Below are positions 43,113 through 57,372 of a DNA stretch of 64,000 nt, piece by piece. The stretch is from Cylindrospermum stagnale PCC 7417. Lineage in GTDB: Bacteria > Cyanobacteriota > Cyanobacteriia > Cyanobacteriales > Nostocaceae. Position 1 is the first letter of the stretch. Every line of letters begins with the position of its first letter. The notes beneath the pieces were generated by a model. It was not told where the DNA came from. It was given only the letters and a program-made list of their open reading frames with translations, and did not search any database. Made by a program: the position numbers and the translations under genes. The DNA lies in the NCBI RefSeq assembly GCF_000317535.1, contig NC_019757.1, positions 5,359,501 through 5,423,500 of the forward strand, in the 5' to 3' direction.

Positions 43113-45284
43113 ATGCTTCAGTATCCCAAACTCGAACAAGCGCTGAAATATCACTTCGGCTATGACCAATTCCGCCCCGGACAACGGCAAATTATCGAAG
43201 ATGCGCTGCAAAATCGGGATTTACTGATTATCATGCCGACCGGTGGTGGTAAATCTCTGTGCTTTCAGTTACCTGCACTCCTCAAACCAGGTTTAACGGT
43301 GGTGGTTTCCCCATTAATTGCTTTGATGCAAGACCAAGTGGAAGCACTGCGAACTAATAACATCTCTGCCACTTTCCTTAATAGTAGTCTGAACGCCTTC
43401 AAAGTGCGATCGCGTGAAGAAGCTCTTCTCCAAGGTAAAATTAAACTCCTCTACGTCGCCCCGGAACGTCTTTTGAGTGAAAGATTTCTTCCCCTGCTGG
43501 ATTTAGTTAAAGAAAAAATCGGCATTTCTACCTTTGCAATCGATGAAGCGCACTGCGTCTCTGAGTGGGGACACGACTTTCGTCCAGAATACCGCCAAAT
43601 GAAATCTCTGCGGAAGCGTTATCCTGATGTCCCTACCCTCGCTCTCACCGCCACAGCTACAGATCGCGTCCGTGCAGATATTATCCAACAATTAGGGCTA
43701 AAGCAACCAAGTATCCACATCGCCAGCTTTAACCGCCAAAACCTTTATTATGAAGTTCGGACTAAAACTAAAACTGCTTATGCTGAATTATTAGGAATAA
43801 TTCGAGAAAATCAAGGTTCAGGAATTATTTATTGTTTAACCCGTAAAAAAGTTGATGAACTAACTCTTAAATTGCAACATGATAAAATTTCTGTTTTGTC
43901 TTATCATGCCGGATTAACTGATGATGAACGCTCAAAAAATCAAACCCGTTTTATTCGCGATGATGTGCGGGTGATGGTGGCAACAATCGCCTTTGGCATG
44001 GGAATTAATAAGCCAGATGTGCGGTTTGTAATTCACTATGATTTACCGCGTAATTTAGAAAGTTATTATCAAGAATCAGGTAGGGCGGGAAGGGATGATG
44101 AACCTTCTCGATGTACGCTTTTTTTCAGTTTTAGTGATATTAAAACTATTGAATGGAGTATTAACCAAAAAACCGACCCCCAAGAACAGTTGATTTCTAA
44201 ACAACAACTACGTCAGGTAATTGATTATGCTGAAGGGACAGATTGTCGGCGGACAATTCAATTAGGTTATTTTGGCGAACGGTTTCCGGGGAATTGCGGT
44301 AACTGTGATAATTGCCTTTATCCTAAACCAGTGCAAGACTGGACAATTGAAGCGATGAAGTTTTTATCTTGTGTAGCCCGTTGTAAAGAAAGATTTGGCA
44401 TGCTGCACATTATTGATGTGTTGCGGGGTGGGAAAAACCAGAAAATTACCCAAAATGAGCATGATTTGCTTTCTACCTACGGTATTGGCAAAGATAAAAC
44501 TTTAGACGAATGGCGGATGCTGGGGCGATCGCTTTTACATCAAGGTTTACTAGAACAAACTGCCGATGGTTACTCGGTTTTGAAGCTCAACGCCCTCAGT
44601 TGGGAAGTGATGAAGCGACAACGGACAGTCTCGATAGCTGTGCCTGTAGCGCAAAAGGTGACTTGGGAAGAAGGGAGTACGAAAGCTGCGGAAGCGGAAG
44701 TTTTGGTGCAAAGATTGCGATCGCTCCGCAAACAACTGGCTGACGAGCAATCTGTCCCCCCCTACGTCATCTTTCATGATTCTACCCTGAAATTAATGTC
44801 TCAGGTACAACCTCAAACCTTAATTGATTTCGGCAAACTTTCGGGCGTCGGTAGTCACAAATTAGCCCAATATGGCGAGAAGTTTCTGGCAGAAATTAAA
44901 GCCTATCGTCGGGAACAAGGTTTACCAGAACAAAAAGTAGAATATCTACCATCTTATCACTCACCATCTGACAATTCACCTTCATACACCGAATTACAAA
45001 CTTTACAATTACATCAGCAAGGTTTAAGCGTCACCGAAATTGCCAGACAACGAGACATCCGCACCACTACAGTTATCCGTCACCTTTCCGATTTAATTCA
45101 GAAAAATCAACAAGTAGATTTTAATCTGTTAGTTCCCCCAGAAAAACAGCAAAAAATTTGGCAAGTTTTAGAAACTCTTGGTGATATCTCGCTGACGCCA
45201 ATTAAAGAATATCTTGGTGATAATTATAGCTACGATGAAATTCGCCTAGTCAGGGGAAAGTGGCGGCGAGAAAATCGTAAGTAA
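43113..45284 (+). CDS. recQ: ATP-dependent DNA helicase RecQ
   Basis: A 723-residue helicase that unwinds DNA 3' to 5' in recombination and repair. The motifs are TGGGKSLCFQLP (Walker A), DEAHCVSEWGHDF (DEAH box), LALTATAT, the zinc-binding cysteines in GNCGNCDNC with the upstream CRRTIQLGYFGERFPG, and an RQC winged helix. An HRDC-like domain follows (YVIFHDSTLKLMSQVQPQTL), then a helix-turn-helix-like tail (QGLSVTEIARQRDIRTTTVI), which some cyanobacterial RecQ proteins carry. Confidence 0.96.
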   Translation: MLQYPKLEQALKYHFGYDQFRPGQRQIIEDALQNRDLLIIMPTGGGKSLCFQLPALLKPGLTVVVSPLIALMQDQVEALRTNNISATFLNSSLNAFKVRSREEALLQGKIKLLYVAPERLLSERFLPLLDLVKEKIGISTFAIDEAHCVSEWGHDFRPEYRQMKSLRKRYPDVPTLALTATATDRVRADIIQQLGLKQPSIHIASFNRQNLYYEVRTKTKTAYAELLGIIRENQGSGIIYCLTRKKVDELTLKLQHDKISVLSYHAGLTDDERSKNQTRFIRDDVRVMVATIAFGMGINKPDVRFVIHYDLPRNLESYYQESGRAGRDDEPSRCTLFFSFSDIKTIEWSINQKTDPQEQLISKQQLRQVIDYAEGTDCRRTIQLGYFGERFPGNCGNCDNCLYPKPVQDWTIEAMKFLSCVARCKERFGMLHIIDVLRGGKNQKITQNEHDLLSTYGIGKDKTLDEWRMLGRSLLHQGLLEQTADGYSVLKLNALSWEVMKRQRTVSIAVPVAQKVTWEEGSTKAAEAEVLVQRLRSLRKQLADEQSVPPYVIFHDSTLKLMSQVQPQTLIDFGKLSGVGSHKLAQYGEKFLAEIKAYRREQGLPEQKVEYLPSYHSPSDNSPSYTELQTLQLHQQGLSVTEIARQRDIRTTTVIRHLSDLIQKNQQVDFNLLVPPEKQQKIWQVLETLGDISLTPIKEYLGDNYSYDEIRLVRGKWRRENRK

Positions 45285-45292
45285 TTCTTATA

Positions 45293-47980
45293 TCACCATT
45301 TACCACAATCCTTGGGATTCTCAGGTGGTAAACCCAGTGTATTCCGAAATTCTGGCTCATAGCAAGCTTGTTGCCAATCGTCAGCGTTTTTAACTTGCTC
45401 TGGTGTTAGATTTTTGGCACCAGCGAGGTCGGCACCAGAGAGTTTGGCAAAATAGAGGTTAGCACCAGCGAGGTCAGCACCAGCGAGGTTAGCACCAGCG
45501 AGGACTGCACCAGAAAGATTGGTACCAGAAAGATTGGTACCAGAAAGATTGGTACTTTTGAAAGCGGCACGTTCGAGGTTGGCACGTTCGAGGTTGGCAC
45601 CAAACAGGTTGGCACCAGACAGGTCAACACGATAGAGGTTAGTACCTTGAAGCGGAATATTATTGAGGTCAACACCAAGTTTTACCAGTTCTTGTAGTGC
45701 TAAGATTCGTGCTGGACTTTTTTCTTGTCCTTTAGCTTTCTCAACCGTATCCCACTGCTGACTAATTTGGATTTGTCTAGTGGTAACACGGCCTAAATAT
45801 ATAGCGAGAATAACTAAAGGAACGAACCCAAAACCAAGCAAACGGAGGCGATTATTTTGTCTATATCTGCGGCTTTGTTTAATCAACTCACCAGCTAAAT
45901 TCGACAAACCAAAGTTGACAGCTTCCTTTTTTTGAAAAACTATAGCGTCGTCTAAGGGTTTACCTTGCAGCAGATAACCTTTAGCCTTGTGATGATCTCG
46001 CCATTTTTCTGCTGCTCCTTCAATTTCCCGTATTTGCAGCAACATCTTTCTGTCAGCATCTAACCAACTTCTCAACAAGCCCCAATGGCGAATTAAAGCT
46101 TCATGGGCAACATCAACTACTGCCACTCTTGCAGATGTTCCTCCCTTTTCCACTATATCAGTAGTCACAATCAGCTTTTCATCCGCCAAACGCTGAACAA
46201 CTTCGTTAATAACTTCTGCCGGATATTTTTGATTAATTAAATCCTGTTGGAGTACCCGTCTGCGAGTGTCTTCTGTACCTTCTCCCAACTGAGTCAGGCT
46301 TAAAAAAATGTGCCGTACTGCTGCTTGTTGCAATTCTGAAAATGATTCGTACACCTCAGTAGCACGTTTTTCCAGCGTCCCCATGACACCACCCAGCTTG
46401 GCATAAGTGTTCACCCGCAAGCAGTTATCACTCCGCTGATTCCACAATTCGGTCAAAGTATATTGCAACAGTGGTAGATATCCTGGGGCGTTTTGGACAT
46501 CCTTTAAAATTTGCTCAACTAATTCCGGTTCAACTTCTAAGTCAGCCAAATTGGCTGGTTTAATAATTGCTTCTCTCAATTCTTGCTCGGACATGGGTGT
46601 AACTGTCACCAGATTTTCCTGAATATGTCGTGCTAGTCCGCTATATTCTTGTTCCGCACACTTACCAAAGAAATCTGCCCGCATGGTCAGCACAAGACAA
46701 AGTTTGTTGTCATGACGTTGCAAGACACCCATCAAGCATTCAAAAAATTTCTTTCTTCTTTCAATATCTTGGCAGAGAGTAAAAGCTTCTTCAAATTGGT
46801 CTGCCACCAGTACGACTCGTTGGGTATTAGCAACGTCAATCAATTGCCTTAACCCATCAGCACCTCTATTTACCAATTCTTCTGCCCTAGCTAGTTGAGA
46901 TGCCCGGTCAACATCTGACAATCCCCCATCCACAAATGTTAGGGCTAAATTTTGCAACGGGTTCTGTCCAGGGCGAAAAATCTTAATCTGCCAACTATCG
47001 CTACCAGATAGTCGCCTTCCTTGCTTTAATTCATACAATAAACCAGCCCTGACAACACTTGATTTCCCATTGCCGGAAGCCCCTAATACTGCGAGAAAAT
47101 TACCTACTCGTAGTTTTTCTAACAATTGGTCAGTCAGTGCTGTGCGCCCATAAAAATATTTTGCATCTTCTTCGGTGCAATCAAAATATTCTAAACCCTT
47201 GTAAGGACAGGTAGTTTGCCCTGATGTCACCCTAGATTCACTGGTTGATGCTGTCCCCCTCCGAGTAAGCTGAATCGGTTCACCAGAATTAGCAAAAATT
47301 GGACGTTGGGGAAAGCTGTTATTTTGCTGGCTTAAAAGTTCTATTGAAGTATAGTTAGTTACCCATTGCTCTGATTTTGGTTCCAACCCTTTGAGTAATG
47401 CCGATGTTAAAAGGCTATGTTGATTACCAATTTCCTCGTATGCAACTTCAAAAGCACGAGATGCGGCAATAAAACAGCGATCGCGTCCTTTACCTCTATC
47501 ACCTGGGTCAGCCTCGGTAAAATTCAGTACCTCGCCGCTATAGCAGCAATCTAAAACAACGATTTGCTGGCGCACAGAACTCTCTTGCAGTAAGCGACGC
47601 AACCATTGCAGAGATAATCCCCAATTGCCGGATAAGGGGTTCACATCACTTGTGGCTAAATATCCTTCTTCTACACCTATGTCTTCCCGTAAACCATGTC
47701 CTGAAAAATATAGCAGAGCCGTATCTGGGGGATGACCTTCTGGTTTAAATAGTTGGACTATAGCTTTTTTGAGATCAGAATGAGCTACCTTCGCCTGTTT
47801 ACCAACCCGAATAGTGTTATTTTCTTTATTTTTAACAGCAGGTAGCCGAGTCACCTTAAAGTCGCCGTACTTTTCCAGTAATTGGGCAATGGCTTCTGCA
47901 TCCTGTGCAGGTGCTTGCAGAGTGTTTAAGCCTTCGTAGCTGTAACTATTAATTCCGACTACTAAAGCATCCCGGCTCAT
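45293..47980 (-). CDS. Caspase-like peptidase - nSTAND ATPase - pentapeptide-repeat protein
   Basis: An 895-residue protein from ATG 47980 (MSRDALVVGINSYSYEGLNT; the ATG at 48019 only adds a poor extension). Residues 1-235 are a caspase/metacaspase fold: the catalytic histidine H95 in YFSGHG and cysteine C146 in LDCCYSG. An nSTAND-type ATPase follows (PYKGLEYF, YFYGRTALTDQLL, Walker A GASGNGKSSVVRAG, Walker B VVLVADQFEEAF), then one membrane segment (LLGFGFVPLVILAIYLGRV). The C-terminus carries pentapeptide repeats (for example NLSGTNLSGTNLSG). Such architectures occur in prokaryotic cell-death or phage-defence systems. A Trypco1-like gene is divergently adjacent. Confidence 0.92.
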   Translation of the reverse strand: MSRDALVVGINSYSYEGLNTLQAPAQDAEAIAQLLEKYGDFKVTRLPAVKNKENNTIRVGKQAKVAHSDLKKAIVQLFKPEGHPPDTALLYFSGHGLREDIGVEEGYLATSDVNPLSGNWGLSLQWLRRLLQESSVRQQIVVLDCCYSGEVLNFTEADPGDRGKGRDRCFIAASRAFEVAYEEIGNQHSLLTSALLKGLEPKSEQWVTNYTSIELLSQQNNSFPQRPIFANSGEPIQLTRRGTASTSESRVTSGQTTCPYKGLEYFDCTEEDAKYFYGRTALTDQLLEKLRVGNFLAVLGASGNGKSSVVRAGLLYELKQGRRLSGSDSWQIKIFRPGQNPLQNLALTFVDGGLSDVDRASQLARAEELVNRGADGLRQLIDVANTQRVVLVADQFEEAFTLCQDIERRKKFFECLMGVLQRHDNKLCLVLTMRADFFGKCAEQEYSGLARHIQENLVTVTPMSEQELREAIIKPANLADLEVEPELVEQILKDVQNAPGYLPLLQYTLTELWNQRSDNCLRVNTYAKLGGVMGTLEKRATEVYESFSELQQAAVRHIFLSLTQLGEGTEDTRRRVLQQDLINQKYPAEVINEVVQRLADEKLIVTTDIVEKGGTSARVAVVDVAHEALIRHWGLLRSWLDADRKMLLQIREIEGAAEKWRDHHKAKGYLLQGKPLDDAIVFQKKEAVNFGLSNLAGELIKQSRRYRQNNRLRLLGFGFVPLVILAIYLGRVTTRQIQISQQWDTVEKAKGQEKSPARILALQELVKLGVDLNNIPLQGTNLYRVDLSGANLFGANLERANLERAAFKSTNLSGTNLSGTNLSGAVLAGANLAGADLAGANLYFAKLSGADLAGAKNLTPEQVKNADDWQQACYEPEFRNTLGLPPENPKDCGKW

Positions 47981-48109
47981 ATTAAAAATTTGAATATTAA
48001 TTATTTTTAATTCTAGCAATTTGGATTTGTTTTCTCAATTTATAAGCAACAAAATTCTCCAAATTTTGTGGTAAATATTCAAGCATCCCTATCCCACCAA
48101 ATTCTAGCT
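47981..48109. promoter_or_regulatory. Divergent promoter of the caspase-STAND and Trypco1 genes
   Basis: 129 AT-rich bases between the two divergent start codons, with TTAAAAATTTGAATATTAAT and TTATTTTTAATTC blocks. It is the likely shared control region. No known operator was recognised. Confidence 0.5.
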
Positions 48110-48499
48110 ATGACTCAACTTGCACCGTTTCAATTAGAAGATGGTACTGTTATATACATTGAGGCTAACGAAGAAGTAGCAGCACCTTCGGTTAACAGTC
48201 AAATTGCTACAGAGGAAGAAGAATCTCTTGATGCTAAAGGATGGAATCCTGTTGCTGTCAAACAGCAAATGGCACAAAATTTCCAAGCTATTCAGGGAAC
48301 TATTCGCGCTTATACGACTCAATCTTTGCAAGCTTTTAAGGATATTGAAATTGGTAATATCCGCAAAGTAACTTTAGAGTTTGGTTTAAAAATCGGTGGT
48401 GAAGCTGGTATTCCTTATGTAACTAAAGGTACTGCGGAAAGTAACCTGAAGATTACAGTAGAGTGTGGCTTTAATAACGAATCTCAGAAAAAGCCTTAG
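48110..48499 (+). CDS. Trypco1-like (CU044_2847 family) small protein
   Basis: A 129-residue protein, start ATG 48110 (an upstream GTG at 48068 is less likely). It begins MTQLAPFQLEDGTVIYIEAN. The C-terminal half, SLQAFKDIEIGNIRKVTLEF then GLKIGGEAGIPYVTKGTAES, is what I recognise as the trypsin-co-occurring domain 1, a small domain that recurs beside trypsin- or caspase-like proteases and STAND ATPases in bacterial conflict systems. It is soluble and may act as a regulator or adaptor of the neighbouring protein. Identification is from pattern memory. Confidence 0.75.
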   Translation: MTQLAPFQLEDGTVIYIEANEEVAAPSVNSQIATEEEESLDAKGWNPVAVKQQMAQNFQAIQGTIRAYTTQSLQAFKDIEIGNIRKVTLEFGLKIGGEAGIPYVTKGTAESNLKITVECGFNNESQKKP

Positions 48500-48508
48500 T
48501 CTCTGCTA

Positions 48509-48556
48509 AACCTCTCTTTTCAGGAGAGGTTCAGTTGTTGTACCCCCTTTAGGGGG
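48509..48556. terminator. Paired hairpins between convergent Trypco1 and SDR genes
   Basis: AACCTCTC-TTTTCA-GGAGAGGTT (48509-48531) and then ACCCCCTTTAGGGGGC (48542-48556). These two stems lie in the short space between the convergent stops and could end both transcripts. Confidence 0.6.
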
Positions 48557-48558
48557 CA

Positions 48559-49311
48559 CTACTGCGCGGTAAAACCACCATCAATGGCTAGAGATTGACC
48601 AGTCACGAAGCTGGCCCCATCTGAACAAAGCCAGGTAACGGCGCTAGCAATCTCTTCAGACTTACCTAAACGACCAATGGGATGTAAAGCCATGATTTTG
48701 ATTTTGCCTTCCTCACCAAAACCACGATCTACCATATCTGTCTCAATCGTACCAGGACAGACGGCGTTAATTCTGATGTTGTCTTTAGCGTGTTCTAAGG
48801 CTAGTGATTTGGTCAAACCAATTACACCGTGCTTACTAGCAGCGTAAATGGAAATATTGGCAAAGCCAATTAAGCCGGCGATGGATGAGTTATTGACAAT
48901 TGCGCCTCCACCTTGCTTCAACATTTGCGGGATTTGATACTTCATCGACAACCAAACCCCTTTGAGATTGGTATCGATGGTATGGTTCCAATTTTCCTCT
49001 GTTTGTTCAATGCCAGGTCCGAAAATTCCTTCAGTACCCGCATTATTAAAGGCATAGTCGAGACGACCGTAAGTAGCAACTGTTTGAGCGATTAAGTTTT
49101 CCACTTCAACTGCTTGAGTGATATCAGTTTGCACAAACTTAGCTTCACCACCAATAGCTTGAATCAGTGCGACGGTTTCTTCGCTCTCTTTGATTCTGCG
49201 ACTTGCAATCACTACCTTTGCACCCTTTTGGGCAAAAGCTAATGCAGCAGCTCTACCGATGCCAGAACTGCCACCTGTGACTAGAGCCACCTTGTTATCA
49301 AATTCTGCCAT
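48559..49311 (-). CDS. Short-chain dehydrogenase/reductase (SDR) family oxidoreductase
   Basis: A 250-residue classical SDR. The cofactor motif TGGSSGIGRAAALAFA is at residues 12-27, NNAGTEG at about 90, catalytic serine S142 in NNSSIAG, and Y155-K159 in IYAASKHG. It is NAD(P)-dependent and most resembles glucose dehydrogenase/ketoreductase-like members. The substrate is unknown. Start MAEFDNKVALVTG. Confidence 0.92.
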   Translation of the reverse strand: MAEFDNKVALVTGGSSGIGRAAALAFAQKGAKVVIASRRIKESEETVALIQAIGGEAKFVQTDITQAVEVENLIAQTVATYGRLDYAFNNAGTEGIFGPGIEQTEENWNHTIDTNLKGVWLSMKYQIPQMLKQGGGAIVNNSSIAGLIGFANISIYAASKHGVIGLTKSLALEHAKDNIRINAVCPGTIETDMVDRGFGEEGKIKIMALHPIGRLGKSEEIASAVTWLCSDGASFVTGQSLAIDGGFTAQ

Positions 49312-55485: not shown

Positions 55486-57372
55486 ATGACCGTTAAAGCC
55501 TGGGGAAAATCTCTTCGAGACATACTGAAACACCCACGACGCTCGATTCTAGAAAACAATTTCCTGAATCCTTACGTATTGACTGCTCTGTTTTCAATAG
55601 GATTATGGCAAGTAGGTGCTTGGCAATCCCTAGAGCTACTAGGATTTAATTTATTGTTCCGCACGCGCAATTATCTACCTCATTCGAGTTGGGATTCGCG
55701 GATTGCCGTAATTGCGATTGACGATGCTACATTGCGACAGTATGGGCAGTTTCCGCTGGCACGCGATCGCTATACTCAGTTACTGGAAACTCTATCTGCC
55801 GCTCCTCCAGCAGTTATCGGCTTTGATATTCTGCTGACCGAGCCTAGCAGTCAAGACGCGAAACTAGCCGAAGCAATGGCTTTCAACGGTCAGGTTGTCT
55901 TAGCGATCGCACCCAGTTTGCAGAAACAGACCCTTCGTCCAGTGCCAGTCCTGGATCGCGTTACCGCCAAAGGGCACATTGCCAGCAATGCCGATCTCGA
56001 TGGAGTAACGCGTCAATACTGGCTCTACATCGATCAAGTTCCCTCCCTCAGCATGACGTTGTTGCAAGCATACAACAATAGCTTGCAGCAAACCTTTACC
56101 GCAGATACCACTAACTCCACAAAATCGCTCATTGCCTTACCACCTCTCCAATCAGGAGAGACAGTACAATCAGTGTGGATTAACTGGGTAGCGCCAACTC
56201 AGGGAGAGCGGGGAATCCCCACCTATTCCTTTGCCGATATTGTCCAAGGCAAGGTAGATACAGCCAAACTAAAGAACAAAATTTTGCTGGTCGGGCTGAC
56301 TGCGACCGGAGCAAACGATCCCTTAAAAACTCCATTCGAGCAAACACCACCAACATCTGGTGTCTACCTGCACGCCGCTATCATCGATAATCTACTCAAC
56401 AACCGACTGTTGCAACGCTTACCCCAGGAATTTGAACTCTTGCTATTATTCGGTTTTGGCATTGGTTCGGGTCTGATACTAGCTCCTTTGAAATTTCACA
56501 AACGAATTCTTCTTCTAGGGCTGCTGCCTGTTACTTGGTTCAGTTTATCAGTGTCAGCTCTGTTCCTAAACAATCTCTGGTTGCCTACCGCAGCTCCCAT
56601 CGGCACGATTTTCTTGGCCGGTCTGAGTGTTCAGTGGCAAGAACAAAGAGAAAAACAACAATTGATGAGTTTGTTCGCTCGTCATGTTTCCCAGGAAACA
56701 GCGACAATGATCTGGCAGCATCGGGACGAAATTTTCCAAAACGGTCAATTGGATGCTAAAGAAATGGTAGCAACGGTTTTATTTACCGATATTCGCAGCT
56801 TTACCACGATTTCTGAGGGGATGAAACCACGAGAGTTGCTCGACTGGTTAAACTCATATTTGGGTGCTATGGCTGAGTGCATTCAAGAGCATCATGGAGT
56901 AGTTGATAAATACATTGGGGATGGTGTGATGGCTGTTTTTGGCATTCCCTTTCCCCACACGCGAGCCGAGGAAATTCAGCAAGATGCTATTGATGCCGTC
57001 TCTGCTGCCATCTCTATGCAGGAACGATTAGTATTATTGAACGCAGAATTAGAACGCCTTGGCAAACCTACCATTACCATCGGCATTGGAATTCATACAG
57101 GCCCATTGGTTGCTGGCAGCATTGGCGGCTCTCAAAGATTGAATTATTCCGTCTTGGGAGATGCTGTGAATATTGCGGCTCGTTTGGAACAACTCAACAA
57201 AAACACGAAAGAGGAAAATCCTTATAACATCTTAGTCAGCGAAACAACGTTTGAGCTGATCAAGCAGCATTTTCATACCCAAAAAGTACAGCAGTTGCAG
57301 CTGCGCGGACGGCAACAATCAACAATGATTTACTCGATCACCGGATTGCTAGATTCATCTGAGCGGTACTGA
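55486..57372 (+). CDS. CHASE2-domain adenylate/guanylate cyclase
   Basis: A 628-residue membrane sensor cyclase. An N-terminal membrane segment and an extracellular CHASE2 domain (WDSRIAVIAIDDATLRQYGQ then FPLARDRYTQLL, IGFDILLTEPSS) are followed by three transmembrane helices (about residues 320-390). The class III cyclase domain follows (about 425-610), with ATVLFTDIRSFTTISEGMKP, the metal aspartates in FTDIRSF and DKYIGDGVMAVFG, and GDAVNIAARLE. It is probably an adenylate cyclase (lysine-type purine selectivity not established). Confidence 0.93.
   Translation: MTVKAWGKSLRDILKHPRRSILENNFLNPYVLTALFSIGLWQVGAWQSLELLGFNLLFRTRNYLPHSSWDSRIAVIAIDDATLRQYGQFPLARDRYTQLLETLSAAPPAVIGFDILLTEPSSQDAKLAEAMAFNGQVVLAIAPSLQKQTLRPVPVLDRVTAKGHIASNADLDGVTRQYWLYIDQVPSLSMTLLQAYNNSLQQTFTADTTNSTKSLIALPPLQSGETVQSVWINWVAPTQGERGIPTYSFADIVQGKVDTAKLKNKILLVGLTATGANDPLKTPFEQTPPTSGVYLHAAIIDNLLNNRLLQRLPQEFELLLLFGFGIGSGLILAPLKFHKRILLLGLLPVTWFSLSVSALFLNNLWLPTAAPIGTIFLAGLSVQWQEQREKQQLMSLFARHVSQETATMIWQHRDEIFQNGQLDAKEMVATVLFTDIRSFTTISEGMKPRELLDWLNSYLGAMAECIQEHHGVVDKYIGDGVMAVFGIPFPHTRAEEIQQDAIDAVSAAISMQERLVLLNAELERLGKPTITIGIGIHTGPLVAGSIGGSQRLNYSVLGDAVNIAARLEQLNKNTKEENPYNILVSETTFELIKQHFHTQKVQQLQLRGRQQSTMIYSITGLLDSSERY

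Follow-up and report, generated by a model that had tools for sequence, protein, structure and literature searches.

A conserved head-to-head gene pair of caspase-nSTAND1 and Trypco1 in cyanobacteria, a candidate two-gene caspase switch

Antiphage STAND proteins such as Avs and bNACHT are arranged as effector, NTPase and sensor, a layout shared by the protein analysed here, for which a role in defence is putative. Conflict systems of the VMAP/MoxR-vWA type, described from multicellular bacteria (Kaur 2020, PMC7159879), likewise place a Trypco1 gene beside a peptidase gene, but in the sections of that paper drawn on here Trypco1 or Trypco2 accompanies trypsin and the VMAP caspases accompany an alpha/beta-hydrolase, the Trypco-trypsin and hydrolase-caspase pairs being mutually exclusive. 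Two-gene systems of EACC1 or EACC2 with a caspase (parts of PMC7159879 and PMC8195603) combine a constant component with a caspase of variable C-terminus, partly bearing transmembrane helices, and in Canu loci a caspase acts with a partner protein by activating a neighbouring nuclease (part of PMC12799240). Cyanobacterial metacaspases and orthocaspases fused to WD40, NACHT/AAA_16 or pentapeptide modules have been catalogued, and the excerpts used of PMC2853523 and PMC8283722 report no neighbour gene for such fusions. Trypco1/2 and caspase-like genes have been described near some DGR loci (part of PMC10907252), and the portions of PMC10907252, PMC7159879 and PMC8195603 concerning Trypco1 and caspases do not remark on the pair treated below, which their supplements may list.

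Within the window, the whole 64,000-nucleotide stretch of DNA that was analysed, from the filamentous cyanobacterium Cylindrospermum stagnale PCC 7417, the caspase open reading frame (45293-48019, minus strand) opens at TTG 48019, but translation most likely begins at ATG 47980, which relatives have as well, giving a protein of 895 residues that begins MSRDALVVGIN (45293..47980, minus strand). The architecture is the one catalogued for fused cyanobacterial orthocaspases, with all features on the minus strand: a Peptidase_C14 caspase domain (47369..47968; Pfam 55.0 bits, cut-off 21.4), an nSTAND1 NTPase domain (45980..47206; 412.6 bits, cut-off 27.1), a single transmembrane segment at residues 714-732 (45785..45841; hydropathy, KD 2.07) and pentapeptide repeats (45416..45640; 71.9 bits, cut-off 20.2), which are predicted with a pLDDT of about 90. 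The p20 fold and His-Cys dyad of Peptidase C14 and orthocaspases are present, the top fold match being the MALT1 paracaspase, and, with residues numbered from ATG 47980, the catalytic H95 (SGHG; codon 47696-47698) and C146 (DCCYSG; codon 47543-47545) are invariant in a 25-row caspase alignment (A3). Walker A and B motifs lie inside the nSTAND1 match: the P-loop GASGNGKS (residues 300-307) is invariant in the same alignment save at position 304, and DQFEE (residues 394-398) is invariant throughout. Profiles, alignment and hydropathy thus agree with the domain assignments of the preliminary description, which had listed the two catalytic residues, the P-loop, Walker B, one membrane segment and the pentapeptide repeats.

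The gene facing this caspase, reported there as a divergent Trypco1-like gene of 129 residues lying 129 bases away, encodes a true Trypco1 protein (48110..48499, plus strand; ATG 48110 to stop 48499), scoring 81.3 bits against Pfam PF19493 (cut-off 24.6) and 95.4 bits against NCBIfam NF041216 (cut-off 23) with a query that carried 14 extra upstream residues. The 129-nt gap (47981..48109) is presumed to hold a promoter region read in both directions. Octamers resembling TTCCGTAA occur in as many as 17 of the 73 distinct intergenic sequences versus 7 after a simple letter shuffle, these sequences being related to one another, and are absent from the intergenic region of the window itself. Compared with the Trypco1-trypsin pairs of VMAP/MoxR-vWA systems (PMC7159879, as far as cited), the window combines Trypco1 with a caspase-STAND protein and the genes are divergent rather than tandem. 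None of the 15 ORFs of at least 180 aa at window positions 32475-62903, all of which were scanned, had a MoxR or vWA Pfam match, and membership in the VMAP/MoxR-vWA ternary system was rejected for want of an adjacent MoxR AAA+ or vWA gene. Assignment to the EACC1 two-gene system was also rejected, since the caspase_w_EACC1 profile (NF047832) scored 100 bits, short of its 140-bit cut-off, and the partner is Trypco1, a family different from the partners in EACC1/EACC2-caspase systems. Unlike Canu loci (PMC12799240, in part), this one holds no nuclease.

To place the pair in its family, we counted matches to the window caspase domain (E 1e-20) and the window Trypco1 (E 1e-5) in 145 genomes of the window's family with no selection of regions, taking genes within 3 kb as neighbours, and obtained 138 and 83, respectively; Trypco1 was present in 116 of the 145 genomes. 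A Trypco1 gene lay within 3 kb of 57 of the 138 caspase matches and was divergent in all 57, with a gap of 98-276 nt in 56 and 1,081 nt in one. Chance adjacency was ruled out, as about 0.06 neighbours would be expected against the 57 observed, a crude figure that ignores kinship of the genomes, whose pairing counts are not independent. Pairing varied with caspase identity to the window (25/30 at 61% or more, 1/53 at 45-60% and 31/55 below 45%), and the five unpaired caspases in the highest class are one at a contig edge (G092), one short piece in G061, two short pieces in G139 and one in G138. One assembly with 38% contamination (G086) contributes caspases counted twice, as unpaired. The preliminary description had named two findings that would refute it, a lack of Trypco1 similarity in profile searches and a pair that is not conserved, and both are contradicted by the profile scores and the neighbourhood survey; the pair is a conserved module of the sort described, for STAND effectors and Trypco domains, as conflict or cell-death systems. 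Among aligned partner caspases the catalytic His was kept in 96/96 and the Cys in 95/96 (exception L248), with 3 of 99 rows gapped; the partner list of 98 rows includes short fragments and one false pair (L108, a Trypco1 preceding a trypsin), without which 95 loci remain.

A second view came from 80 Trypco1 regions among the matches listed, of which 29 had a long window-like span and 51 were chosen mainly by rank, so that they are not a random sample. Head-to-head caspase genes, some of them interrupted by a frame break or the end of a contig, were found in 23 of the 29 long-span regions; in the remainder the caspase was apparently disrupted by an insertion (L068), absent (L071, L077, L082, L083) or cut off by a contig edge (L085). 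Most of the other 51 had a same-strand trypsin gene downstream of Trypco1, partly as trypsin-nSTAND1, while L137 and L138 faced a caspase. A scan of genome contigs with 16 aligned Trypco1 sequences gave 137 relatives, of which the best 80 came from cyanobacteria, for the most part of filamentous genera, with two exceptions: Desulfococcaceae HSG9 (L250) and a Planctomycetaceae MAG (L257) that is probably misbinned, because its Trypco1 domain is identical to that of Nodosilinea L256. Partners among these best 80 comprised 50 head-to-head caspase/nSTAND genes (a few truncated), one caspase/nSTAND gene in tandem and overlapping with Trypco1 (L250), and 19 head-to-head 2TM-type proteins forming one HMM family (PF13239 in 6/6 scanned; another ORF intervening in 3/19); seven had no partner, with disrupted remnants in L213 and L233, and three more lay at a contig edge. 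The L060-L088 and L180-L259 sets overlap in organisms, and 57 is accordingly the pair count to use. In a phylum-wide draw of 292 genomes, 34 matched the Trypco1 profile from alignment A2 at E 1e-6.

Phylogenetic analysis of 152 Trypco1 rows, resting on 122 columns and with several long branches, separated (branch support 97/96) a side of 105 rows (73 caspase, 19 2TM, 9 without partner, 3 edge and 1 tandem caspase) from a side of 47 (40 trypsin, 4 MoxR and 3 without partner). Caspase-linked Trypco1 thus forms a partner-specific subfamily apart from the trypsin- and MoxR-linked ones. In a rapid tree of 128 caspase rows (SH-aLRT alone, 48 open forks) the Trypco1-paired caspases fell into three groups, the mislabelled L108 aside, and caspases with another partner were sister to the window's group, a join with support 83.

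That other partner is a helical-looking, unnamed family of about 160 aa, here called LALLL from its N-terminus, which stands head-to-head with the sister-clade caspases lacking Trypco1 and gave no profile match in domain scans apart from a weak chance match. Across the 145 genomes, again with no region selection, 34 of 38 LALLL matches were head-to-head with a caspase match, and the 138 caspase matches divided into 57 with Trypco1, 34 with LALLL, none with both and 47 with neither; the last included fragments, second copies of tandem arrays and caspases preceded by a different gene, for example one for a same-strand membrane protein in L272-L277. In 16 of 27 loci LALLL adjoined a conserved gene of about 480 aa, and in 8 of 27 ORFs LALLL formed the N-terminal part of a protein of 717-854 aa, with a CHAT protease match in all eight. 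The arrangement is most simply read from the tree as a swap of Trypco1 for LALLL in the sister caspase clade.

Around the caspase, the remaining parts of the protein change. By crude patterns, the C-termini of 67 Trypco1-paired caspases, from redundant organisms, were pentapeptide (25), WD40 (16), histidine kinase (2) or unclassed (24), the unclassed holding at least one pentapeptide protein recognized by Pfam (L080) and two histidine kinases (L160, L162); profiles confirmed the WD40 and kinase ends in L070, L072, L160 and L162. A transmembrane segment after nSTAND1 was scored in 43 of the 67. The NTPase itself is nSTAND1 or, in four of four scanned members of one clade (L245, L254, L257, L259), NB-ARC, two of these four also matching APAF1_C and one carrying HEAT repeats. 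Because both NTPase and C-terminus change around them, caspase and Trypco1 are the constant pair, with Trypco1 following the caspase rather than the NTPase. Median identity to the window across 28 pentapeptide-type relatives was 0.71 for the caspase, 0.67 for nSTAND1, 0.18 for the linker, 0.41 for the transmembrane region and 0.47 for the pentapeptide part.

The C-terminal end of STAND proteins is normally a sensor or scaffold, and the pentapeptide end is better read in this way, since the same caspase core also bears WD40, histidine-kinase or other ends. This interchangeability tells against the pentapeptide output suggested in the preliminary description. Some pentapeptide proteins bind DNA enzymes, and pentapeptide ends are common here (at least 25 among the 67 partners scored, plus L080 by Pfam), so that an effector set free by the caspase, for example a DNA mimic, could be imagined; with WD40 or histidine-kinase ends on at least 18 of the 67 partners and the lower identity of the pentapeptide part relative to the caspase fitting a sensor, we regard this as very improbable.

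Purifying selection acts on Trypco1 itself (dN/dS 0.07-0.24 over 24 paired-gene comparisons). Profile scans assigned it to no family of toxins or enzymes above cut-off, and a weak PADLOC match to JetA (E 0.0055) was ascribed to chance. Its AlphaFold model from a 59-row alignment reached a pLDDT of 57, and since Foldseek of that model against the PDB returned nothing under E 0.7, we make no claim as to fold; the Trypco1 profile likewise gave a single, chance-level match among PDB sequences (E 0.69). Trypco1 may work without the caspase, as it persists in genomes lacking a cognate-clade caspase (L071, L210, L234, L244) at dN/dS 0.09-0.13, pairwise values that include time before caspase loss. 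Such retention is no more than suggestive of an antitoxin-like asymmetry, with dN/dS at 0.25 in L189 and 0.47-0.54 in L208, and with a disturbed N-terminus in L130.

A feature of the Trypco1 sequence bears on whether the protein regulates the caspase or is cut by it. K43-G44 (48236..48241, plus strand) stands out at the end of a variable, acidic loop of low pLDDT as a candidate cleavage site, with K/R in 57 of 59 and G in 57 of 59 rows of alignment A2 (K/R 67/73 and G 60/73 across all caspase-linked tree rows); conservation of the dyad does not extend to trypsin- or MoxR-linked Trypco1. Cleavage follows Arg in paracaspases and Arg or Lys in metacaspases, and orthocaspases are presumed to be specific for basic residues (PMC8283722, in the part cited); the window caspase, with MALT1 as its top fold match, would by inference cut after basic residues too. 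In Canu, the nuclease encoded next to the caspase is activated by it (PMC12799240, likewise in part). Trypco1 could then act as a gated pro-effector or plug whose disordered loop is cleaved behind K43 once the STAND protein fires, in analogy to the protease-activated partners of Canu and AVAST loci. We consider this substrate role possible but doubtful: K-G also occurs in all 19 Trypco1 proteins that face a 2TM-type protein rather than a caspase (among the best 80 of 137), several distant caspase-linked Trypco1 have YG, YKD or YR there, the dyad could be a helix cap, and a pro-effector sits uneasily with the lack of toxin or enzyme matches above cut-off.

The genomic setting shows the two genes present or absent together. 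RecQ (43113-45284) and an SDR gene (48559-49311) flank the cassette, and in the other two genomes of the genus they are neighbours with no cassette between them (identities 98% and 88% for RecQ, 90% and 82% for SDR), where the 3,271-bp stretch holding both genes (45287..48557) is missing; in alignment to G028, similarity ends at 45286 and restarts at 48558. The cassette appears to have been gained or lost as a unit, with gain and loss indistinguishable, no clear target duplication at its edges and a GC content of 0.424 against 0.423 for the window. Flanks of 23 loci formed eight context groups by single linkage, a lower bound. The window's own genome contains no second caspase match at E 1e-20 and one decayed Trypco1-trypsin-nSTAND1 locus. 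Twelve neighbouring ORFs of at least 180 aa, up to about 13 kb away in each direction, besides caspase, RecQ and SDR, are transport, metabolic, signalling or unassigned, and the 15 ORFs of this size at 32475-62903 include no defence island. In PADLOC, RecQ matched DpdF and a CHASE2 cyclase matched PycC, both of which look generic.

This metabolic neighbourhood, the persistence of Trypco1 without caspase and the lack of a viral relative among 21 viral-contig pattern matches would suit a co-regulated pair serving mainly internal regulation (stress, differentiation or filament cell death) rather than phage defence. The patchy presence (one of three genomes of the genus), variable C-termini and partner exchange nevertheless resemble conflict systems, and we think a mainly internal function unlikely.

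From what was read in the sequences (domains, catalytic residues, head-to-head conservation, the Trypco1 subfamily and presence or absence as a unit), we infer, with about an even chance of being right, a two-gene NLR-like caspase switch in which Trypco1 is the dedicated partner of the caspase and most likely its regulator. The variable C-terminal repeats, here pentapeptides, would sense or scaffold; the nSTAND1 NTPase would change state and oligomerise at the membrane, joining the paracaspase- or orthocaspase-like N-terminal domains into an active form; and the activated protease would cleave proteins after basic residues and thereby arrest or kill the cell, possibly in defence. Trypco1, made from the shared divergent promoter region, may bind the caspase domain as a holding inhibitor or assembly cofactor. 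Layout and the precedents of STAND proteins, Canu and EACC (parts of PMC7159879, PMC8195603, PMC10907252 and PMC12799240) speak for a caspase that is gated by the NTPase at the membrane, and a regulatory Trypco1 is preferred because it is retained when NTPase and sensor change and because its slot can be taken by an unrelated small protein. On the other side stand the 47 of 138 caspases without either partner in these searches, the caspase-less Trypco1, the 19 relatives facing 2TM proteins, and the lack of a defence island around the window's pair and of a viral relative among the viral-contig matches. A bolder extension, rather improbable, would make Trypco1 and LALLL interchangeable, caspase-specific gatekeepers at a single head-to-head slot and also substrates of the caspase, with cutting of the K-G loop or release of LALLL-CHAT, a second protease, as the committed step of a two-step proteolytic death cascade built on nSTAND1 or APAF1-type NTPases.

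Trypco1 has so far been named and explained by trypsin, with the caspases of VMAP systems paired with alpha/beta-hydrolases (PMC7159879, in the sections drawn on). The large subfamily dedicated to caspases goes beyond this trypsin rule and shows that Trypco1 tracks the protease, not the NTPase, and the compactness of the two-gene system lets the role of Trypco1 be tested directly. The relatives that join a caspase to NB-ARC and likewise have Trypco1 as partner, two of them with an APAF1_C match, unite an apoptosome-like domain set within one bacterial polypeptide.

A second Trypco1-trypsin-nSTAND1-FGE-like locus in the genome of Cylindrospermum stagnale (L284, 4636-7052; C2, about 6604640) is decayed, its Trypco1 gene carrying an internal stop and its trypsin and NTPase being truncated. 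Within the window, the CHASE2-adenylate/guanylate cyclase gene at 55486-57372, which PADLOC Pycsar cyclase models also match, probably encodes an ordinary signalling cyclase.

Among the best 80 of 137 Trypco1 relatives, 19 loci within L196-L258, hosted by Leptolyngbya/Nodosilinea-type cyanobacteria, placed a 2TM-domain protein head-to-head with Trypco1. Four loci (L071, L210, L234 and L244) held the caspase-linked kind of Trypco1 in genomes that lacked a caspase of that clade; dN/dS for these genes was still ~0.1.

Elsewhere, caspase-STAND genes faced, head-to-head, the divergent gene of an unnamed, helical-looking family of ~160 aa, LALLL (L144, 4001-4510, and 26 further loci within L141-L158 and L260-L279), which was fused to a CHAT protease domain in 8 of these 27. 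Adjoining LALLL genes was a conserved 'YPTLDLFLYDLR' gene of ~480 aa (L144, 2232-3710, and 15 further loci), the single member scanned having no Pfam or NCBIfam match.

Caspase-nSTAND1-histidine kinase fusions were divergent from Trypco1 at L160 (5313-8183) and L162 (5477-8350). Caspase and NB-ARC were joined in a single protein, with Trypco1 head-to-head, at L254 (99-4037), L259 (55-4872), L245 (1302-5921) and L257 (736-4797), the last two also matching APAF1_C; the combination of domains is apoptosome-like.
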